This document shows positions 1 through 7,545 of a DNA stretch of 64,000 nt, piece by piece (the stretch's first letter is position 1; each line of letters begins with the position of its first letter). The notes beneath the pieces are model-generated. The model made no database searches. It saw only the letters and a list, made by a program, of their open reading frames with translations, and had not been told where the DNA came from. The translations under genes were made by a program, and so were the position numbers. The DNA is from Lawsonia intracellularis PHE/MN1-00. Its GTDB lineage: Bacteria > Desulfobacterota > Desulfovibrionia > Desulfovibrionales > Desulfovibrionaceae. The stretch spans positions 677,501 to 741,500 of the forward strand of contig NC_008011.1 of the NCBI RefSeq assembly GCF_000055945.1, in the 5' to 3' direction.

Positions 1-3000
1 TACTTGATTTAAGTAAACGTACTCCTACTCAGTTCCCTGAACCAACACAAGTATGGGTTGTGTCTATGGGCTCTGGGAAAGCAACACTAATTAATCCAAT
101 TAAAGATAATAGTTATCCAATCAAATACTCAGGAGCTGAAGTCCTTGAAGTATATATAAAGCTACCTGGTGCACCAGGAGTTGGTTTTACTCCTGTTCTC
201 TGGACAAAAAAAAGCTTTTCGACCTTTTATGCTTCTATGCATGTTGCTATATTATTTTTGCTTGCAATTACTATTGCTATCTGTCTTATTCGAGCATTTA
301 CAGAAAAACAAGAATGGAGAATTTGGGCTGCACTTTATTCAGGATCTATTCTAATAAGCACACTATGGGGACTTCCTCCTACCCCTAAGGGGATACTTAC
401 TATTTGGGATATACCTGGTTTACTAGCTCCAGGAATAGCACTATTTATTCTACCACACATAGGTAGACGCCTGATGAACACAAGGCAAGTATCACCTCAT
501 ATTGATATACAACTTTTACTTCTTACTCTTCCAGGATTAGTTTTATCAATTCTTCCTCTTATTCCTGGATATCTTTGGACTTTACCATATCTTTCTGTTT
601 GGCCACTTATAACTATTCTCTTTTTACCCACTTGTTTGTATGCAAGATTTTGTGATCTAAAACAATCAAAAACATTTTTTACTATATGTGCATTCCCATC
701 TATTGGGATATTGCCTCTTGCTATTTCTATCAACTCTATGCCTCAATATATTCCTATAGGTCTAATTAACCTCTTTCCTATAATAACACTTACTCTAAGT
801 GCTATGCTTGTTGCACTTGTACCTAATCCAAAACCTTCTTCTGGAGCTATACGACGGGAACACCCTTCTTCTAACATAAAAATACCATCTATACCTAATA
901 AACAAAATAAGATACAGATGAAGAAAGAAGAAGAACAAAGAACAACAACTACAAATTTAAATATAGAAAGTCTTGAACAACAGCTACGTGCACCTTTAGA
1001 GCGTATACGTAAAGAATTAAGTATACTTAATACATCGCTACAGTCGACACCCTTACAACAGCACATTGAATCTATTGAAAATACAGCCGAAGGTCTTTCT
1101 CATATTATTAATGATATACCTGAACTATTTATCTCCAAAACTCATACTGACAAAGAAATTTTTGACTTAAACCAAATAGTTCTGGGTATCCATGATGCTG
1201 TCAATAACGATGCAGAAAGTAAAAATCTTGCTTTTTCTTGGTTTATAGCACCGCATCTTTATCAAAAATATGAAGGTAACCCAACGCAGCTAACACAAGT
1301 CCTTTATATGCTTGTTGAAAGCTCCATACAAGCTACAGAAAAAGGACTTGTACAACTACGTATTCAACGGGTACCTAATAGTATAAACCCTGGAGAACTA
1401 CTTATTACAGTTTCTGACTCTGGGAAAGGATCACCACCAATTACACGTAGCCCGCTTGCTCTTATTCATGCTTGGGAATTAGCAACTAGCACTGGTGGCT
1501 CTGTGACAATGAAAAGTGAGCCAACAGGAACAACTATCTCATTTAGTATCTCCCTCACTGCTAAACAAACAACTACGTCTTTATCCCACCAACATGATGA
1601 GTCAATTACTACTACTGAACAGCCAACAACACAATTATCACAAATTATTATTGTTGATATTGTCCCTAGCAATAGACAACTTTTAACTTACTACTTAGAT
1701 GAACTTCCCTATAATATCTTTGAAGCACAAGATGTTACTACTGTCTATAATCTATATAAACAATCTCCAGGAGCAGTTATCATTTTTGGACCAGAACTGT
1801 CTGAAACTATTGCTATTGAAACAATAGGAGCTATTAGAGTATTTGAGGGAGAACACAACTTCCTTCCTGCACCAATATTAGCTATTTGCAAAACAGAAGC
1901 TCAAAAAGAAAGACTCCTAAGAATAGGCTGTACCCATGTAATTATCGAACCATTAACTCGTAAGACCTTTCGACAAACTATATTACAGTTATCGCCTATT
2001 TCTAGCCATACCCAAGCTATACCTAGTCCTCTTTTGGAATCAACATCTAAAAAAATCAAACAGACAGCACCTACTAGTTCTGTTAACTCAAAACTAATAG
2101 ACACAGTAAATGATTCACAAATACCATGCATGGAGACGCCTATACAGGATATACCCATATCTCCTCATGCCTCTCTCTATTCTGAAGATAATACTTCAGA
2201 GTATACTCATGAAAAAAAGGGGATAGCACTCCTAAAAACCCCAGATCAAATTAAAACAAAAAAACTTTCTATAATTAAAGGAGAACCTACACCTATTTCT
2301 TCTTCGACTCATCAACAAAGGAATGATACATCTCTAACCAATAATGTTAGCTACAAAGTAGAACAATATCCTCTTATGAGTTCATCAGAGTGGGTTGGTG
2401 AACCTACTCCTATTACTAAGCAAAAAACTTCTACTAATAAAACTTCAGCTAGATTATCGCAACATTCATCAGAATGGGTTGGTGAGCCTATTCCTATTAT
2501 AAAACGAAAAAAACCACCAATAACCCCACCTAAAAATGATCCTTTACATAATACTGTAGAGTGGGTTGGTGAACCTATGCCTATTACTATAGCACAGCAA
2601 AAATCATTAACAATTGAACAACAACCTATAGTTAATCTAACAATAGAAGATGAACAACTATCCTCAGAAAAAAGAAAAATTGTTGAGGAAAACTATACGA
2701 CAACTATAGAAAAAACACTGTCAGCAGAACCTAAACCACACGAGCAACTTGCAACTATTACTAAAGAAAAGATAGAACACATTGAACCTATAGTAACAAC
2801 AAATGATATACATAAAAATAACCTATTAGAGAATGGTACATCTTTTAATGAAAAATCAGTTATACTACAAAACTCTATAGAGATACCTGAAGATTTATCA
2901 ATTTATTCCCCAAGTTTACACATTCAAAATTCCCCTGAAAAATCTTTTTTATCATCACAAAGTGAACCTGATAACAACTCTCAATGCATTAATAACTCAT

Positions 3001-3764
3001 CAAAAGAAATAGATACAATTCAAGAAGTTCCCATAACATCATCTGACTCGGCTATTATCAATCAAAAAGATAATAAACATCATGATAACCTATTAACAGC
3101 TACTACAACTAGACAAAAGAAGCATAATAATTCTCGTCAAAAAAACTCTCGACATCAAAAATCATCACTATCATTATTAGATATGATAACAATACCAACA
3201 GAAGAGAACCAAGAAACAAACCATACACAAAAAGCTCTTAATACTGATAGCTACTTATCTATGGTTGGACACCCTGAGATACCAGAAGAACATATCATAA
3301 CATTAACAGAAACAGTAGATACATACAAAAAAGACACATTATCAGTAAAAAAAGACATACCAGACTTATTTAGTGTTCACCATCCAACAGAAGTCATAGA
3401 AGATTTTACTTATCCAAAGGAGCAGTCTGAACAACTAAGTATGATGCAACTTTTTAGCTCAACACTTAACATTGTCGAAGAAAACGACTTGGGAACTCAT
3501 TCTAAGGAACTTTTCCAAGAATTAGATATTACATTAGGATTATTACAACAAGCTATCCAAACAAAACAATCTGAAAATCTTGTATCCTTTTCACAGGTCA
3601 TTTTATCTCTCTCTGAACAACTAAAGTTAAAACATCTAAAAACACTTTCTTACTCTTTACTCGACGCTATCCAAACAAGTAAAGAAGATATAATAGAACA
3701 ACTTATTAAAGATATAAAAGCAGAAGTACAACATAACCAAGGGGATACTACAGACTTATTATAG
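1..3764 (+). CDS. Membrane-bound hybrid sensor-kinase-like protein with degenerate catalytic residues (5' end outside window)
   Basis: The frame is open to base 1, so the true start lies upstream; a GTG at 60 is only the first in-window start codon. Seen: about six or seven hydrophobic segments between 220 and 830, then a coiled linker, a DHp-like helix (about 960-1100), an ATPase-like region (about 1260-1560), a receiver-like domain (about 1640-1990), a long Thr/Ser/Lys-rich linker, and a helical C-terminus resembling an Hpt domain (about 3440-3750). The usual H-E-L-R-T-P-L box reads EQQLRAPL, so the phospho-acceptor His is Gln (978-980). The N-box reads ESSIQAT instead of NAIKFT-like. The receiver starts IIIVDIVPSN, and the strand that should carry the acceptor Asp reads AVIIFGPELS. 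The glycine boxes (SDSGKGS, TGGSVTM) are partly kept. Inference: a pseudo-kinase scaffold at the inner membrane. No partner is visible in the window. Confidence 0.7.
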   Translation, partial: LDLSKRTPTQFPEPTQVWVVSMGSGKATLINPIKDNSYPIKYSGAEVLEVYIKLPGAPGVGFTPVLWTKKSFSTFYASMHVAILFLLAITIAICLIRAFTEKQEWRIWAALYSGSILISTLWGLPPTPKGILTIWDIPGLLAPGIALFILPHIGRRLMNTRQVSPHIDIQLLLLTLPGLVLSILPLIPGYLWTLPYLSVWPLITILFLPTCLYARFCDLKQSKTFFTICAFPSIGILPLAISINSMPQYIPIGLINLFPIITLTLSAMLVALVPNPKPSSGAIRREHPSSNIKIPSIPNKQNKIQMKKEEEQRTTTTNLNIESLEQQLRAPLERIRKELSILNTSLQSTPLQQHIESIENTAEGLSHIINDIPELFISKTHTDKEIFDLNQIVLGIHDAVNNDAESKNLAFSWFIAPHLYQKYEGNPTQLTQVLYMLVESSIQATEKGLVQLRIQRVPNSINPGELLITVSDSGKGSPPITRSPLALIHAWELATSTGGSVTMKSEPTGTTISFSISLTAKQTTTSLSHQHDESITTTEQPTTQLSQIIIVDIVPSNRQLLTYYLDELPYNIFEAQDVTTVYNLYKQSPGAVIIFGPELSETIAIETIGAIRVFEGEHNFLPAPILAICKTEAQKERLLRIGCTHVIIEPLTRKTFRQTILQLSPISSHTQAIPSPLLESTSKKIKQTAPTSSVNSKLIDTVNDSQIPCMETPIQDIPISPHASLYSEDNTSEYTHEKKGIALLKTPDQIKTKKLSIIKGEPTPISSSTHQQRNDTSLTNNVSYKVEQYPLMSSSEWVGEPTPITKQKTSTNKTSARLSQHSSEWVGEPIPIIKRKKPPITPPKNDPLHNTVEWVGEPMPITIAQQKSLTIEQQPIVNLTIEDEQLSSEKRKIVEENYTTTIEKTLSAEPKPHEQLATITKEKIEHIEPIVTTNDIHKNNLLENGTSFNEKSVILQNSIEIPEDLSIYSPSLHIQNSPEKSFLSSQSEPDNNSQCINNSSKEIDTIQEVPITSSDSAIINQKDNKHHDNLLTATTTRQKKHNNSRQKNSRHQKSSLSLLDMITIPTEENQETNHTQKALNTDSYLSMVGHPEIPEEHIITLTETVDTYKKDTLSVKKDIPDLFSVHHPTEVIEDFTYPKEQSEQLSMMQLFSSTLNIVEENDLGTHSKELFQELDITLGLLQQAIQTKQSENLVSFSQVILSLSEQLKLKHLKTLSYSLLDAIQTSKEDIIEQLIKDIKAEVQHNQGDTTDLL
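2388..2585 (+). repeat. Three spaced copies of an EWVGEPxPI peptide repeat inside the sensor-like gene
   Basis: Copies at 2388-2414, 2472-2498 and 2559-2585 encode EWVGEPTPI, EWVGEPIPI and EWVGEPMPI. The spacing is 84 and 87 bases, and variable Lys/Thr/Pro-rich sequence separates them. A shorter related GEPTPI lies just before them near 2281. The core is conserved in protein while the linkers diverge, which suggests short linear binding motifs in a disordered linker. Confidence 0.8.
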
Positions 3765-4125: not shown

Positions 4126-5391
4126 ATGCAAAATATACGCTCTAGTTATACTGACTCTATTAATTTCTTTGGTAAGACATCACCTGAAGAACTAATAAAA
4201 ATTTATGGTTCACCTTTATATGTATATAATGAATCCATAATCCGACAACGATGTAAAGAAATAAAAAGTCTATCTTCCTATCCAAATTTTTTTGTATCTT
4301 ATTCTGCTAAAGCAAATACAAATCCTACATTACTCTCTATTATTAAAGATGAAGGATGTCTTGTAGATGCTATGTCTCCTGGAGAAGTATATCTCCATAA
4401 AAAAGTAGGATTTAAGTCTGATGAAATACTTTATGTATGTAACAACATTTCTGCAGAAGAAATTCAATATGCTATTGATAACAAAATCCTTCTTAGTATA
4501 GACTCACTTTCTCAACTTGAAACCTATGGGAAACTTAATCCTGGGGGGAAAATAATGGTCCGTATTAACCCTGGGATAGGTACAGGACATCATAAAAAAG
4601 TTATAACTGCTGGAAAAGAAACAAAATTTGGAATTAATACAGAACAGTTTAGTGATGTAAAAAAAATAGTAGATACGTATCAATTGATGCTAGTTGGAAT
4701 AAATCAACATATAGGTTCTCTTTTCTTAGATCCCCAAAATTATCTTGACTCTATTGCTTTTCTTCTTCAATTTATAGACAATAACCCTTGGATTTTTGAA
4801 CAGCTAGAAATTATAGATTTTGGTGGTGGTTTTGGTATTCCTTACAAAAAATATGAAGAACAACCACGACTTGATCTCAAAAAAATGTCAGAACAGTTCA
4901 ATACAAAAATTATGGACTGGGTAGCATCAACTGGTTATAAAGGACGTTTCTATATTGAGCCTGGCCGTTATATCATTGCAGAAAGTGGGATATTACTTGG
5001 TTCTGTACATGTTGTTAAATATAATGGTCCTATACGCTATATAGGAACAGATGTAGGATTCAATGTCCTTATGAGACCTGTATTATATGATGCTTATCAT
5101 GAGATTGAAGTCTATCGTAAAAATGGTACACCAGACTTACAGCTTATTCCACAGACTGTAGTAGGAAACATTTGTGAAAGCGGTGACATTATAGCAAATA
5201 AGCGTCCTCTACCTCTCATTCAAGAAGGAGATATAATTGGTATCTTAGATGTAGGCGCTTATGGATTTGTTATGTCATCAAACTATAATCAACGTCCAAG
5301 ACCAGCTGAAGTTCTCATTCAACAGAATGGTGAACCAAAGCTTATTCGTAAGCGTGAAACAATTGAAGATATGAATATTCAACTTCATTAA
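4126..5391 (+). CDS. lysA: Diaminopimelate decarboxylase
   Basis: A 421-residue PLP enzyme that converts meso-diaminopimelate to L-lysine and CO2, the last step of lysine synthesis, in the cytoplasm. The fold-III PLP barrel is visible: the Schiff-base lysine is K62 in SYSAKANTN, followed by the His of NQHIGSLF, the phosphate-binding glycines of FGGGFGIPY, EPGRYIIAESG, the catalytic Cys in CESGDI, and the C-terminal GAYGFVMSSNYN that contacts PLP and substrate. The length is normal. AAAAGG lies about 8 bases before the ATG. The next gene starts 25 bases after the stop and may be co-transcribed. Retained lysine and DAP processing fits a bacterium that still makes peptidoglycan. Confidence 0.96.
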   Translation: MQNIRSSYTDSINFFGKTSPEELIKIYGSPLYVYNESIIRQRCKEIKSLSSYPNFFVSYSAKANTNPTLLSIIKDEGCLVDAMSPGEVYLHKKVGFKSDEILYVCNNISAEEIQYAIDNKILLSIDSLSQLETYGKLNPGGKIMVRINPGIGTGHHKKVITAGKETKFGINTEQFSDVKKIVDTYQLMLVGINQHIGSLFLDPQNYLDSIAFLLQFIDNNPWIFEQLEIIDFGGGFGIPYKKYEEQPRLDLKKMSEQFNTKIMDWVASTGYKGRFYIEPGRYIIAESGILLGSVHVVKYNGPIRYIGTDVGFNVLMRPVLYDAYHEIEVYRKNGTPDLQLIPQTVVGNICESGDIIANKRPLPLIQEGDIIGILDVGAYGFVMSSNYNQRPRPAEVLIQQNGEPKLIRKRETIEDMNIQLH

Positions 5392-5416: not shown

Positions 5417-6595
5417 ATGCCTTCTTTTTCTTTTGTATTAAGATGTTGCCTGCTCTTTTTAATGGTACTAACCTCACAAACCTTGTCTGTTTCACAGCCA
5501 CTAAGAGAAGAAGCTGAAGGGAATTTACCACAACATATTGAAGCTACCTTAACTAACCTTATTGAAGCAACTTCTTCAACAAAACAATACCCTTCTGTTT
5601 CACAGCTTGATACAATCCTTCAATTTGTAACATCGACTAATGAACAGGCTCATAAAATCCTTCCAGCCACACGTGATTATGGTAAAGGTATTTTTTATAA
5701 AACTACTATAAATATTCCACTGTCTACCTTAATTAAATATTTTCTTAACCCAGAAATTCCAGGAGAAGCACTTTATCCTACAAGTATCCGTCGTAATGTA
5801 TGGCAAGAAGGAAGTGAAATCCTCCAAAATAGTAATATATTCTTAGCAGCACCTCTTCCTCCCCAAAAACCTATTTTCTCTCGAGGAACAGAATATGAAG
5901 AAATAACTCCTGATATATCTAGCGGATGTTATTATAACTATATTTTAAAAAGACTATTTATTTTATATAAATTTAAGAGTGAAACAGCGTTTATTACTGT
6001 TTCATTTATGCCAAAAGAATCATCTGTTGGATTACGTGGCGGTGTTATTGGTAAAGATACTGAGTGGGATTATGTCTATGGTCCAGACATAGGCACAAAC
6101 CTGCCTATGCTAACATGGGCAAAAACATATCTTTATGGTTCAGCAACTATTAACATTTTCACCCAAAAACCTAATAGTCCTACTACAGATATTTATATAT
6201 TCAAATGGACAAGTGCTGGCTGGTCAGGGATGAATGTTGTAACACATAAACACATTAGAAATGGGGTTATTCGCTTTATTTCAGGTTTGAAACAAATTAT
6301 GGAATCCCCTTATCTCCCCTCAGAACAAGAAATTATTAAAAAACATAGCGAGCTTAACACAATGAGTCTTAATGAATTACAATCTGCTCTCAAACCATTT
6401 GCATCAAAACTTGCAGCAAAAAGTCTTAAAGATTCTACTCTATCAAAAGATAATTTTCAAAAAATTCTAAAAAATGACGTCTACCCTACAACACTAACAA
6501 AAGAAAATGCTGTTGCTGAACTTTTAAAACGTTATATGAAGCAAAAAATTAATCAAACTATGGAAGGAAAGACAACTATCACATCAAAAAAATAA
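5417..6595 (+). CDS. Predicted secreted protein, unknown function
   Basis: A 392-residue protein with a Sec-type signal peptide (hydrophobic core about residues 6-24, likely cut after SQTLSVSQ or nearby), so probably periplasmic or exported. The mature part has no membrane segment and no motif I recognise. It is mixed alpha/beta, with several Trp and Tyr residues mid-protein (AGWSGMNVVTHKH, GKDTEWDYVYG) and a Lys/Leu-rich helical tail of about 100 residues. It lies 25 bases downstream of lysA on the same strand and could be in the same transcript. No function is proposed. Confidence 0.8.
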   Translation: MPSFSFVLRCCLLFLMVLTSQTLSVSQPLREEAEGNLPQHIEATLTNLIEATSSTKQYPSVSQLDTILQFVTSTNEQAHKILPATRDYGKGIFYKTTINIPLSTLIKYFLNPEIPGEALYPTSIRRNVWQEGSEILQNSNIFLAAPLPPQKPIFSRGTEYEEITPDISSGCYYNYILKRLFILYKFKSETAFITVSFMPKESSVGLRGGVIGKDTEWDYVYGPDIGTNLPMLTWAKTYLYGSATINIFTQKPNSPTTDIYIFKWTSAGWSGMNVVTHKHIRNGVIRFISGLKQIMESPYLPSEQEIIKKHSELNTMSLNELQSALKPFASKLAAKSLKDSTLSKDNFQKILKNDVYPTTLTKENAVAELLKRYMKQKINQTMEGKTTITSKK

Positions 6596-6711: not shown

Positions 6712-7545
6712 ATGAATGATGGATGTCTTCCTGAAGAATTTAGACAACATCAAATAGATGATATATATTTTGAAGAATCCTATGAGTCAATGGATCCTCA
6801 ACACAGGGTATGGATTAAAACAACTTTAGCTCTAACAGGAGCATTTTATAATATATTCCCTGGTAGAACAATATCTACTCAAGAAAATCTGTCTATTGGT
6901 TTTCAACTAAAAAAAACTTTTAAACCTTTTCATTGGACCATCTTACTCTTAGATGAACATTATATGTCTTCGCCAAGAATTGCAGCAGCAATTATGCCTG
7001 CACAGCTTGCTGGAGTTAAAAACATTATAGCTGTTTGGACCAGTAAAAATAACCGACTGACCGCTGAAAAAATCTCACCTGCTTTACTAACAACATTAGA
7101 ACTTTCAGGAGTTAACATAGCCCTAACACTTACCCACACTGAAACTGAACTTCTTATTCATCAATTAATGAAAATAGGTATTGGAAACCTGTTATATTTT
7201 TTAAAAGAAGAAGACATACTACATATATCTACTATACCTGTACTACCTTTCTGGAAAGAATATACTTCTCATCGACTTGTTATAGAAAAAGATGCTGGCA
7301 TTAATACAGAAATCCTCCAATGGGCACATCCTCATTCAATTATAGAACAAATAGCAACAGAACCATACTCTGAAGATATCCCAGATGCACTTTACTGTGC
7401 TAGCTCATCCAGTAAAAACTATACATCATACAGAATCCCAAGAATTTTTCATAATGGACTTGAAGCATATTGGATTCATCCAACACTTTCTCCAGCCTCC
7501 TTTCTCCATACAACATGGGATTTATCTTTGCTAGAACAAGACTAA
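6712..7545 (+). CDS. Uncharacterised protein, faintly histidinol-dehydrogenase-like
   Basis: 277 residues, soluble, no signal peptide. The stretch SSPRIAAAIMPAQLAGVKNI resembles the part of HisD that reads PSxxLMxxxPAxVAGVxxI. The order of the following segments, with an Ala-Gly-Ile/Asp-like patch near residue 200, is also loosely HisD-like. The gene is much shorter than HisD (about 430 residues) and I cannot see the zinc ligands or the catalytic Glu-His pair, so it is not an active histidinol dehydrogenase. It lies between a secreted protein and an MFS transporter, with no other his gene in the window. The family assignment is a weak inference. Confidence 0.6.
   Translation: MNDGCLPEEFRQHQIDDIYFEESYESMDPQHRVWIKTTLALTGAFYNIFPGRTISTQENLSIGFQLKKTFKPFHWTILLLDEHYMSSPRIAAAIMPAQLAGVKNIIAVWTSKNNRLTAEKISPALLTTLELSGVNIALTLTHTETELLIHQLMKIGIGNLLYFLKEEDILHISTIPVLPFWKEYTSHRLVIEKDAGINTEILQWAHPHSIIEQIATEPYSEDIPDALYCASSSSKNYTSYRIPRIFHNGLEAYWIHPTLSPASFLHTTWDLSLLEQD

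Follow-up and report, generated by a model that had tools for sequence, protein, structure and literature searches.

The window, a 64,000-nucleotide stretch of Lawsonia intracellularis PHE/MN1-00 (NC_008011.1, positions 677,501-741,500; genome of 1,719,014 bases in four contigs, the first of 1,457,619), opens with the visible part of a gene for a protein built like a hybrid histidine kinase. We favour, with moderate confidence, the reading that this protein is a conserved pseudo-hybrid kinase of the Desulfovibrionaceae, in which the folds of the relay have been kept and its chemistry has been lost at each step, and which would act by docking in a RetS-like, phosphate-independent way.

The gene start and most of the sensor lie left of the window, outside the sequence analysed, and residue numbers count from the visible frame. 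The frame 3-3764 is open for 1253 codons, a length that base composition would yield with a probability of about e^-88; a 2962-amino-acid (aa) frame for this gene was rejected as an artefact of a stretch of N upstream. Pfam domains of the visible protein followed the order of a hybrid kinase (HisKA, HATPase_c, Response_reg), HATPase_c scoring just above its cut-off (E 4.9e-6) and both HisKA (E 0.012) and Response_reg (E 0.067) below theirs, and no PAS domain was found by Pfam in the visible part. BarA was the best NCBIfam match (E 9.5e-15), with 53.7 bits against a cut-off of 890. Pfam and profile searches gave the same order that a first-pass annotation of the window had described, from the membrane part through DHp, ATPase, receiver and long linker to an Hpt-like bundle:

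3..3764, + strand: visible part of the pseudo-hybrid histidine kinase gene (1253 codons and stop); 5' end left of the window
123..857, + strand: extracytoplasmic end and multi-helix membrane region, 7TMR-DISM-like in relatives; source of the family-defining profile
963..1124, + strand: DHp-like two-helix segment, aa 321-374; LRxPL kept after the lost His, profile E 1e-4, two predicted helices
1149..1562, + strand: pseudo-ATPase (CA) domain, aa 383-520, without ATP lid and G2 box; of all domains the closest to the relative G001
1635..1988, + strand: pseudo-receiver domain, aa 545-662; profile match, receiver fold predicted
1995..3482, + strand: long linker, aa 665-1160; fast-evolving in relatives
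3495..3758, + strand: C-terminal four-helix bundle (predicted), Hpt-like

The acceptor columns were read from DHp, ATPase and receiver profiles made of 15 hybrid kinases of related genomes with canonical residues (L034, L001, L004 and G023 omitted). The following sites were located by these catalytic profiles and by the family alignment, except where other evidence is named:

978..980, + strand: DHp His replaced by Gln326
1320..1322, + strand: N-box Asn replaced by Ser440
1416..1418, + strand: G1-box Asp472, kept (DSGKG)
1788..1790, + strand: receiver acceptor Asp replaced by Gly596
1947..1949, + strand: Glu649 (in IEP) in place of the receiver Lys; 26 of the 97 aligned members outside genus g21, Lawsonia counted, have Glu
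3594..3596, + strand: Hpt His column occupied by Gln1198 (family alignment and structural alignments)

In the profile alignment the two N-box Asn columns correspond to Met436 and Ser440, and neither a GxGxG (G2) box nor an ATP lid was found between the G1 box and the next helix in the profile columns and the alignment. The first acid of the receiver, Asp552, is canonical, and the Thr/Ser column is Cys629. Ungapped structural alignments with RcsD (806-890 against 24-108 of the model) and HptB (16-112 against 19-115) also placed Gln1198 at the Hpt His column; the Hpt histidines of these two proteins are taken by us to be His842 and His57.

The losses that the first-pass annotation had read from the letters were thus borne out: the Gln at the DHp His, the missing N-box Asn, the replaced receiver Asp, IEP at the receiver Lys column and an Hpt-like region without its acceptor His. 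The alignment of the domains to profiles that it had proposed as a check found no His or Asp at the acceptor columns of DHp, receiver and Hpt. Its broader statement that every expected phosphotransfer residue is altered holds for the DHp, the N box, the receiver Asp and Lys and the Hpt site, but not for the G1-box Asp472 and Asp552, which are canonical.

Among the features of a catalytic hybrid or unorthodox kinase, the G1 box is present in the deduced protein, and the DHp His, the N box with lid and G2 box, the receiver Asp and Lys and the Hpt His are absent. On these sequence and fold data the gene can be classed as encoding a putative pseudo-histidine kinase, a kinase fold without catalytic functions, in the sense of PMC12632262, and its receiver as a putative pseudo-receiver, a predicted receiver fold without the key catalytic residues. 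Both are already known kinds, and a literature search also listed papers on ChrS and RocA; in the survey of that paper, as far as its available text goes, domains without the phosphorylation site made up 0.9% of HisKA, 0.9% of Hpt and 2.0% of receivers (PMC12632262). No paper on the present family was found in the open-licence literature searched. A survey of Lawsonia lists PhoQ- and BvrS-like kinases, and this gene is not recognisable among the kinases named in the accessible part of that paper (PMC11355991).

The membrane-region profile, built from 13 sequences, matched 150 of the 288 Desulfovibrionaceae genomes, belonging to 18 of 44 genera, with one match per genome except for G123, which had two pieces. 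When 348 genomes of the order were searched (288 of the family and 60 others), again 150 matched, all of them, among the matches listed, in Desulfovibrionaceae. Named members of a second collection include Candidatus Bilophila faecipullorum, many Desulfovibrio and a Mailhella; four of its 33 loci (L231-L234) came from outside the Desulfovibrionaceae, at 33-42% identity. Loci were taken from 111 of the 149 further genomes with a match and, together with the window, make up the 112 members compared here (G217 yielded 10 bases). Thirteen members were scanned with Pfam, in which 7TMR-DISMED2 was found in seven (E up to 0.5, over cut-off in G006), 7TMR-DISM_7TM weakly in five, N-terminal to the kinase part (E up to 0.5, the best below cut-off), and Hpt in three (best E 5.5e-4, below cut-off).

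In the alignment of these 112 members the catalytic residues look intact in one genus only, g21. The DHp His is present in nine of its ten members, the same nine carry the N-box Asn, and in G023, G184, G186 and G191 the two receiver acids, the acceptor Asp and the Lys are present as well; the Hpt column lacks its His in all nine g21 members aligned there too. Outside this genus, the DHp His occurs in none of the 59 aligned members (of 102), the N-box Asn in 8 of 94, and a His at the Hpt column in 1 of 85. All five sites are lost in 34 of the 52 non-g21 members in which all five columns were aligned, 31 of the 34 belonging to genus g52 and one being Lawsonia. A GxGLG-like string was found in 8 of 10 g21 members and, among the 102 others, in G006 alone, which has no residues in the aligned G2 columns. 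As regards relatives of the same genus (g1), G001 and G002 have lost the DHp His and the N-box Asn but retain both receiver residues, Asp and Lys; in G003 the N-box Asn is gone, as are the receiver Asp and Lys. According to these alignments, nearly all members outside g21 have lost the early relay steps, and some lineages, Lawsonia included, the receiver sites. With g21 and the intermediate members, the loss of phosphorelay chemistry in a protein that keeps its domains can be followed. The family tree was built without outgroup (G163 omitted for coverage), and midpoint rooting placed g21 (support 1.0) nested inside it, several deep nodes having support of 0.15-0.5; for both reasons a single loss cannot be told from multiple ones.

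Apparent DHp histidines given by the catalytic DHp profile in G028, G003, G163, G302, G087 and G096 were rejected, because E was about 2 or worse and the family profile shows no His in the aligned non-g21 members; the matched stretch lay between the membrane part and the ATPase domain in G096 and not there in the other five. A distance from the G1 box to the last strand obtained by regular expression, measured in 56 of 95 non-g21 members, was dropped as too noisy, and lid loss rests on the profile columns and the alignment. As a separate observation, five g21 members (G183, G185, G187, G188 and G189) keep the DHp His and the ATPase boxes, and their receiver is unrecognised or has lost its canonical residues, an order of loss opposite to that of G001 and G002.

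Selection was studied through the ratio of nonsynonymous to synonymous substitution rates (dN/dS) in 67 within-genus pairs, one of them of g21, and this ratio was low in the dead domains. From 84 candidates, 26 non-g21 pairs were kept after near-identical pairs and reused members had been dropped, the receiver and the linker being placed in 16 of them. Pooled dN/dS was 0.139 for the membrane part (26 pairs), 0.078 for the ATPase domain (24), 0.104 for the C-terminal bundle (21), 0.109 for the receiver and 0.404 for the linker (16 pairs each). In the ten pairs with both members devoid of all five sites the values were 0.149 for the membrane part, 0.092 for the pseudo-ATPase and 0.052 for the bundle, and six of these pairs gave 0.098 for the pseudo-receiver and 0.365 for the linker. 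As pooled ratios this low show, the dead domains are not in free decay; judged by these comparisons, they are under purifying selection in the relatives. The dN/dS comparison among related genomes had been suggested in the first-pass annotation, and its preference for a pseudokinase over simple decay is supported, the dead state being common to a family under purifying selection. Losses of the HisKA, receiver and Hpt sites are here combined in one protein whose dead domains, in the relatives, have dN/dS as low as or below that of the membrane part. Sequence identity between Lawsonia and G001 is highest for the pseudo-ATPase, at 60%, not far below the 63% of the decarboxylase encoded next to the gene; it falls to 44% for the receiver, 42% for the membrane part, 27% for the bundle and 24% for the DHp segment. 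Distances to outgroups, expressed as the ratio of Lawsonia to G001, were 1.03-1.26 for the ATPase domain and 1.09-1.20 for the membrane part.

The low dN/dS of the pseudo-ATPase would also suit a ligand-responsive pseudokinase, the other possibility raised in the first-pass annotation, in which this domain binds a nucleotide or something similar through the kept G1 box and the binding itself is the signal; outside g21, 90 of 94 aligned members have the G1-box Asp and 85 of 93 the first Gly of the box. However, the usual binding of Mg-ATP appears improbable, as 86 of the 94 aligned members outside g21 have lost the N-box Asn and neither lid nor G2 box is present, and we consider this reading unlikely, although of the alternatives it is the one to which we give most credence.

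A docking role is favoured by a motif of the linker. The pattern [DE]WVG[DE]PxP occurs in 76 copies in 47 of the 112 members, with the consensus EWVGEPMP[IMVL], and was not obtained in any of 200 shuffles. Motif scanning of the Lawsonia linker gave:

2271..2297, + strand: degenerate copy of the linker motif, IIKGEPTPI
2388..2414, + strand: linker motif copy 1, EWVGEPTPI
2472..2498, + strand: linker motif copy 2, EWVGEPIPI
2559..2585, + strand: linker motif copy 3, EWVGEPMPI

In the Lawsonia genome the DNA pattern of the motif is confined to this gene. The motif is present in all four members of genus g1, no strict copy was found in the catalytic genus g21, and a looser VG[DE]PxP occurs in 4 of 5 members of g55 and 1 of 2 of g54. 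A text search of open-licence papers for EWVGEP returned no paper, and the linker motif is new here. The suggestion of the first-pass annotation that the protein may be a scaffold gains support from this conserved motif. Its copy number varies, as L229 has six copies 41-42 aa apart and L228 three copies 39 aa apart.

AlphaFold was applied to the window's own sequence with 27 relatives (fold alignment A6 omits L219 and L227; A7 omits L203, L205, L217, L227 and L228). Predicted local distance difference test (pLDDT) values were 60-83 in the DHp helix pair, mostly 92-97 in the ATPase and receiver blocks and over 90 in the C-terminal four-helix bundle. The nearest solved structure by sequence was the kinase core of RetS (E 5.7e-9), with GacS behind. 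With the kinase-receiver model, Foldseek ranked ShkA at the top, followed by the RetS-GacS complex, GacS and RetS, DivL being at rank 23; by Z score the ATPase domain of ETR1 alone leads (20.2) and RetS is next (19.4), so that the list ranked by Z does not single out RetS. The best Foldseek match of the bundle was the Hpt domain of RcsD (E 0.045), with which generic bundles tie in Z. Receptor rows in the structural list of the bundle were discarded, as they look like generic or fused helical bundles, and haemoglobin matches of the G023 bundle (E 3.7e-5 for the whole sequence, 0.53 for the best stretch) were attributed to chance likeness of a short helix. C-terminal to the ATPase domain, no six-letter string is more widespread than CVERAA (39 members of 9 genera, g21 included); it sits in the C-terminal bundle of relatives (e.g., L042:4650-4955) and is absent there in Lawsonia.

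The likeness to RetS of Pseudomonas, a hybrid sensor that lacks autokinase activity, comprises the nearest solved kinase core by sequence, a place among the nearest folds and a degenerate ATPase domain. In RetS we take the DHp His to be His424, so that the fourth position after it would be Thr428; according to the profile alignment the fourth position after the DHp His column is Ala in the Lawsonia protein. RetS restrains GacS in three ways, of which the blocking of autophosphorylation needs only the kinase core and no phosphate transfer, and the other two are disabled by loss of the receiver Asp and of Thr428, according to the available text (PMC5992135, PMC7695008 for the first point; PMC5992135 for the second). 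The same source describes the RetS HATPase domain as degenerate, without G-boxes and without autophosphorylation, and still able to inhibit autophosphorylation of GacS (PMC5992135). The contact mechanism is the one that would be left here, since the two others need the receiver Asp and Thr428 and the Lawsonia protein has Gly and Ala in their place. The input domain may also correspond: 7TMR-DISMED2 is the type found in RetS homologs in the accessible part of PMC11330419, and it was seen in the scanned relatives mentioned above.

There are nevertheless clear differences, as far as the available texts of the papers go. RetS lacks the G-boxes, whereas the present protein has lost the G2 box and keeps the G1 box; RetS has two receivers and no Hpt (PMC11330419), whereas here there are one pseudo-receiver, a long linker bearing the motif and an Hpt-like bundle without His; and two of the three RetS mechanisms depend on phosphate chemistry (PMC5992135). 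DivL of Caulobacter, a pseudo-histidine kinase, similarly keeps the DHp and ATPase folds without the His and acts by binding, but its sensors are PAS domains, its His is replaced by Tyr, and the H, N, G1, F and G2 boxes are kept; the Lawsonia protein has Gln326 at the His position and no PAS domain found in the visible part. A receiver or Hpt is not mentioned for DivL in the accessible portion of that paper (PMC4211667). The pseudo-receivers of ShkA and CikA also have a receiver fold without key residues inside a hybrid kinase (PMC12632262, in its available text), but these kinases autophosphorylate, whereas in the present protein the residues of the kinase part are gone as well. Finally, the order DHp-ATPase-receiver-Hpt is that of unorthodox kinases of the GacS/BarA type, from which this protein differs in that all phosphate steps are lost.

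The pseudo-hybrid kinase reading starts from the lost residues, the shared family, the predicted folds, the conserved motif and the purifying selection on the dead domains of relatives. On this reading, the extracytoplasmic and membrane part would sense something and rearrange the cytoplasmic domains. These would act by binding, the pseudo-kinase core docking on another signalling protein and the EWVGEPxP motifs on the flexible linker recruiting a further partner. Dimerisation, the kinase partner, the signal, the direction of the effect and the binding target of the motif are what we infer. A kinase partner is possible, since the Lawsonia genome has three other HisKA domains and nine receiver domains (E 0.001). 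More tentatively, we propose that a full phosphorelay may have turned into a phosphate-free scaffold, its His, Asp and His steps being retired and its domains kept as binding surfaces, with EWVGEPxP[ILMV] recruiting a dedicated partner across much of the Desulfovibrionaceae. The motif is a handle for fishing out that partner and could show what phosphate-free signalling by such proteins looks like.

Several observations weigh against the pseudo-hybrid kinase reading. The strict motif is missing in 65 of the 112 members, including all of g19, g56, g8, g11, g17, g18, g2, g54 and g55. The predicted template modelling score (pTM) of the model is 0.48, so that the arrangement of the domains is not fixed by it. 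No residue is present at the DHp His column in 41 of the 100 matched non-g21 members, in which the DHp is therefore not shown. Single fully dead pairs reach dN/dS of 0.31 (ATPase domain, G099-G142) and 0.23 (bundle, G160-G131), and some of the ten dead pairs share branches. Lawsonia is too distant from its relatives for dN/dS, so that the selection figures are those of the relatives, and its outgroup-distance ratio to G001 was 1.29-1.62 for the receiver, 1.17-1.65 for the DHp segment and, in a single comparison, 5.3 for the bundle. In Lawsonia, as these distances suggest, the ATPase domain has been held, and the receiver and bundle are looser than in G001. Lastly, the receiver Asp survives in 46 and the Lys in 31 of the 97 aligned non-g21 members, so that some relatives may still take up phosphate.

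The faster change of the receiver and the bundle, the small genome (1,719,014 bases) and the retention of the receiver Asp and Lys in G001 and G002 would be expected if the Lawsonia copy were a failing gene in a reduced genome, kept in frame by chance. We judge this to be decidedly improbable, the lowest-placed but one of the alternatives: an open frame of this length is hardly reached by composition, the pseudo-ATPase, with ratios of 1.03-1.26, has hardly sped up and resembles G001 more than any other domain does, three EWVGEP copies survive in the linker, and the same losses are common to relatives under purifying selection. The first-pass annotation would have been contradicted by canonical relatives together with relaxation confined to the present gene; such a picture fits the canonical g21, the receiver Asp and Lys of G001 and G002 and the faster receiver and bundle of Lawsonia, but the DHp His, the N-box Asn and the ATP lid are gone in G001 and G002 as well.

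The surviving receiver residues would also be accounted for if some members of the family still served as a phosphate sink or phosphatase and Lawsonia were a derived exception, and RetS does accept phosphate on a receiver (PMC5992135, in its available text). Such a function cannot apply to the Lawsonia protein, with Gly596 and Glu649, nor to the 34 members without any of the five sites, and the receivers of fully dead members have low dN/dS where measured; we regard it as very unlikely.

With respect to the neighbouring genes, 88 of the 112 loci, all ten of g21 included, have a gene for a membrane-anchored TPR protein upstream and in the same orientation, the 24 others comprising some cut by a contig end or with an upstream stretch not covered. 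The CcmH/CycH model of TPR proteins scored over cut-off in one of the three scanned, and gene clusters from which the single protein scanned was CcmC or CcmB lie ahead of the gene in 18 and 11 loci, in genera g52 and g4. These data would agree with an envelope adaptor that pairs with the upstream TPR protein and serves envelope or cytochrome assembly instead of two-component signalling. However, generic TPR models outscore CcmH/CycH, in G003 no TPR gene was found next to the kinase-like gene, the four g1 genomes gave no close copy of it (about 5 kb upstream in Lawsonia lay outside the search), the cytochrome assembly genes of Lawsonia lie elsewhere in the genome, and the cytochrome link concerns a small share of the loci. 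We therefore hold such an adaptor to be improbable, slightly less so than the failing gene, and retain the pseudo-hybrid kinase as the favoured reading. Downstream of the gene the window contains:

4126-5391: decarboxylase, also downstream in G001

The decarboxylase is followed by two open reading frames, at 5417-6595 (392 aa) and 6712-7545 (277 aa), with no Pfam match at E 1e-4. Genes for export proteins of the YscJ/FliF, FHIPEP, Bac_export_1 and FlhB types (L007:572-8548) were located to the left of the window, at a distance of about 6.5 to 14.4 kb; the name of RetS refers to exopolysaccharide and type III secretion.

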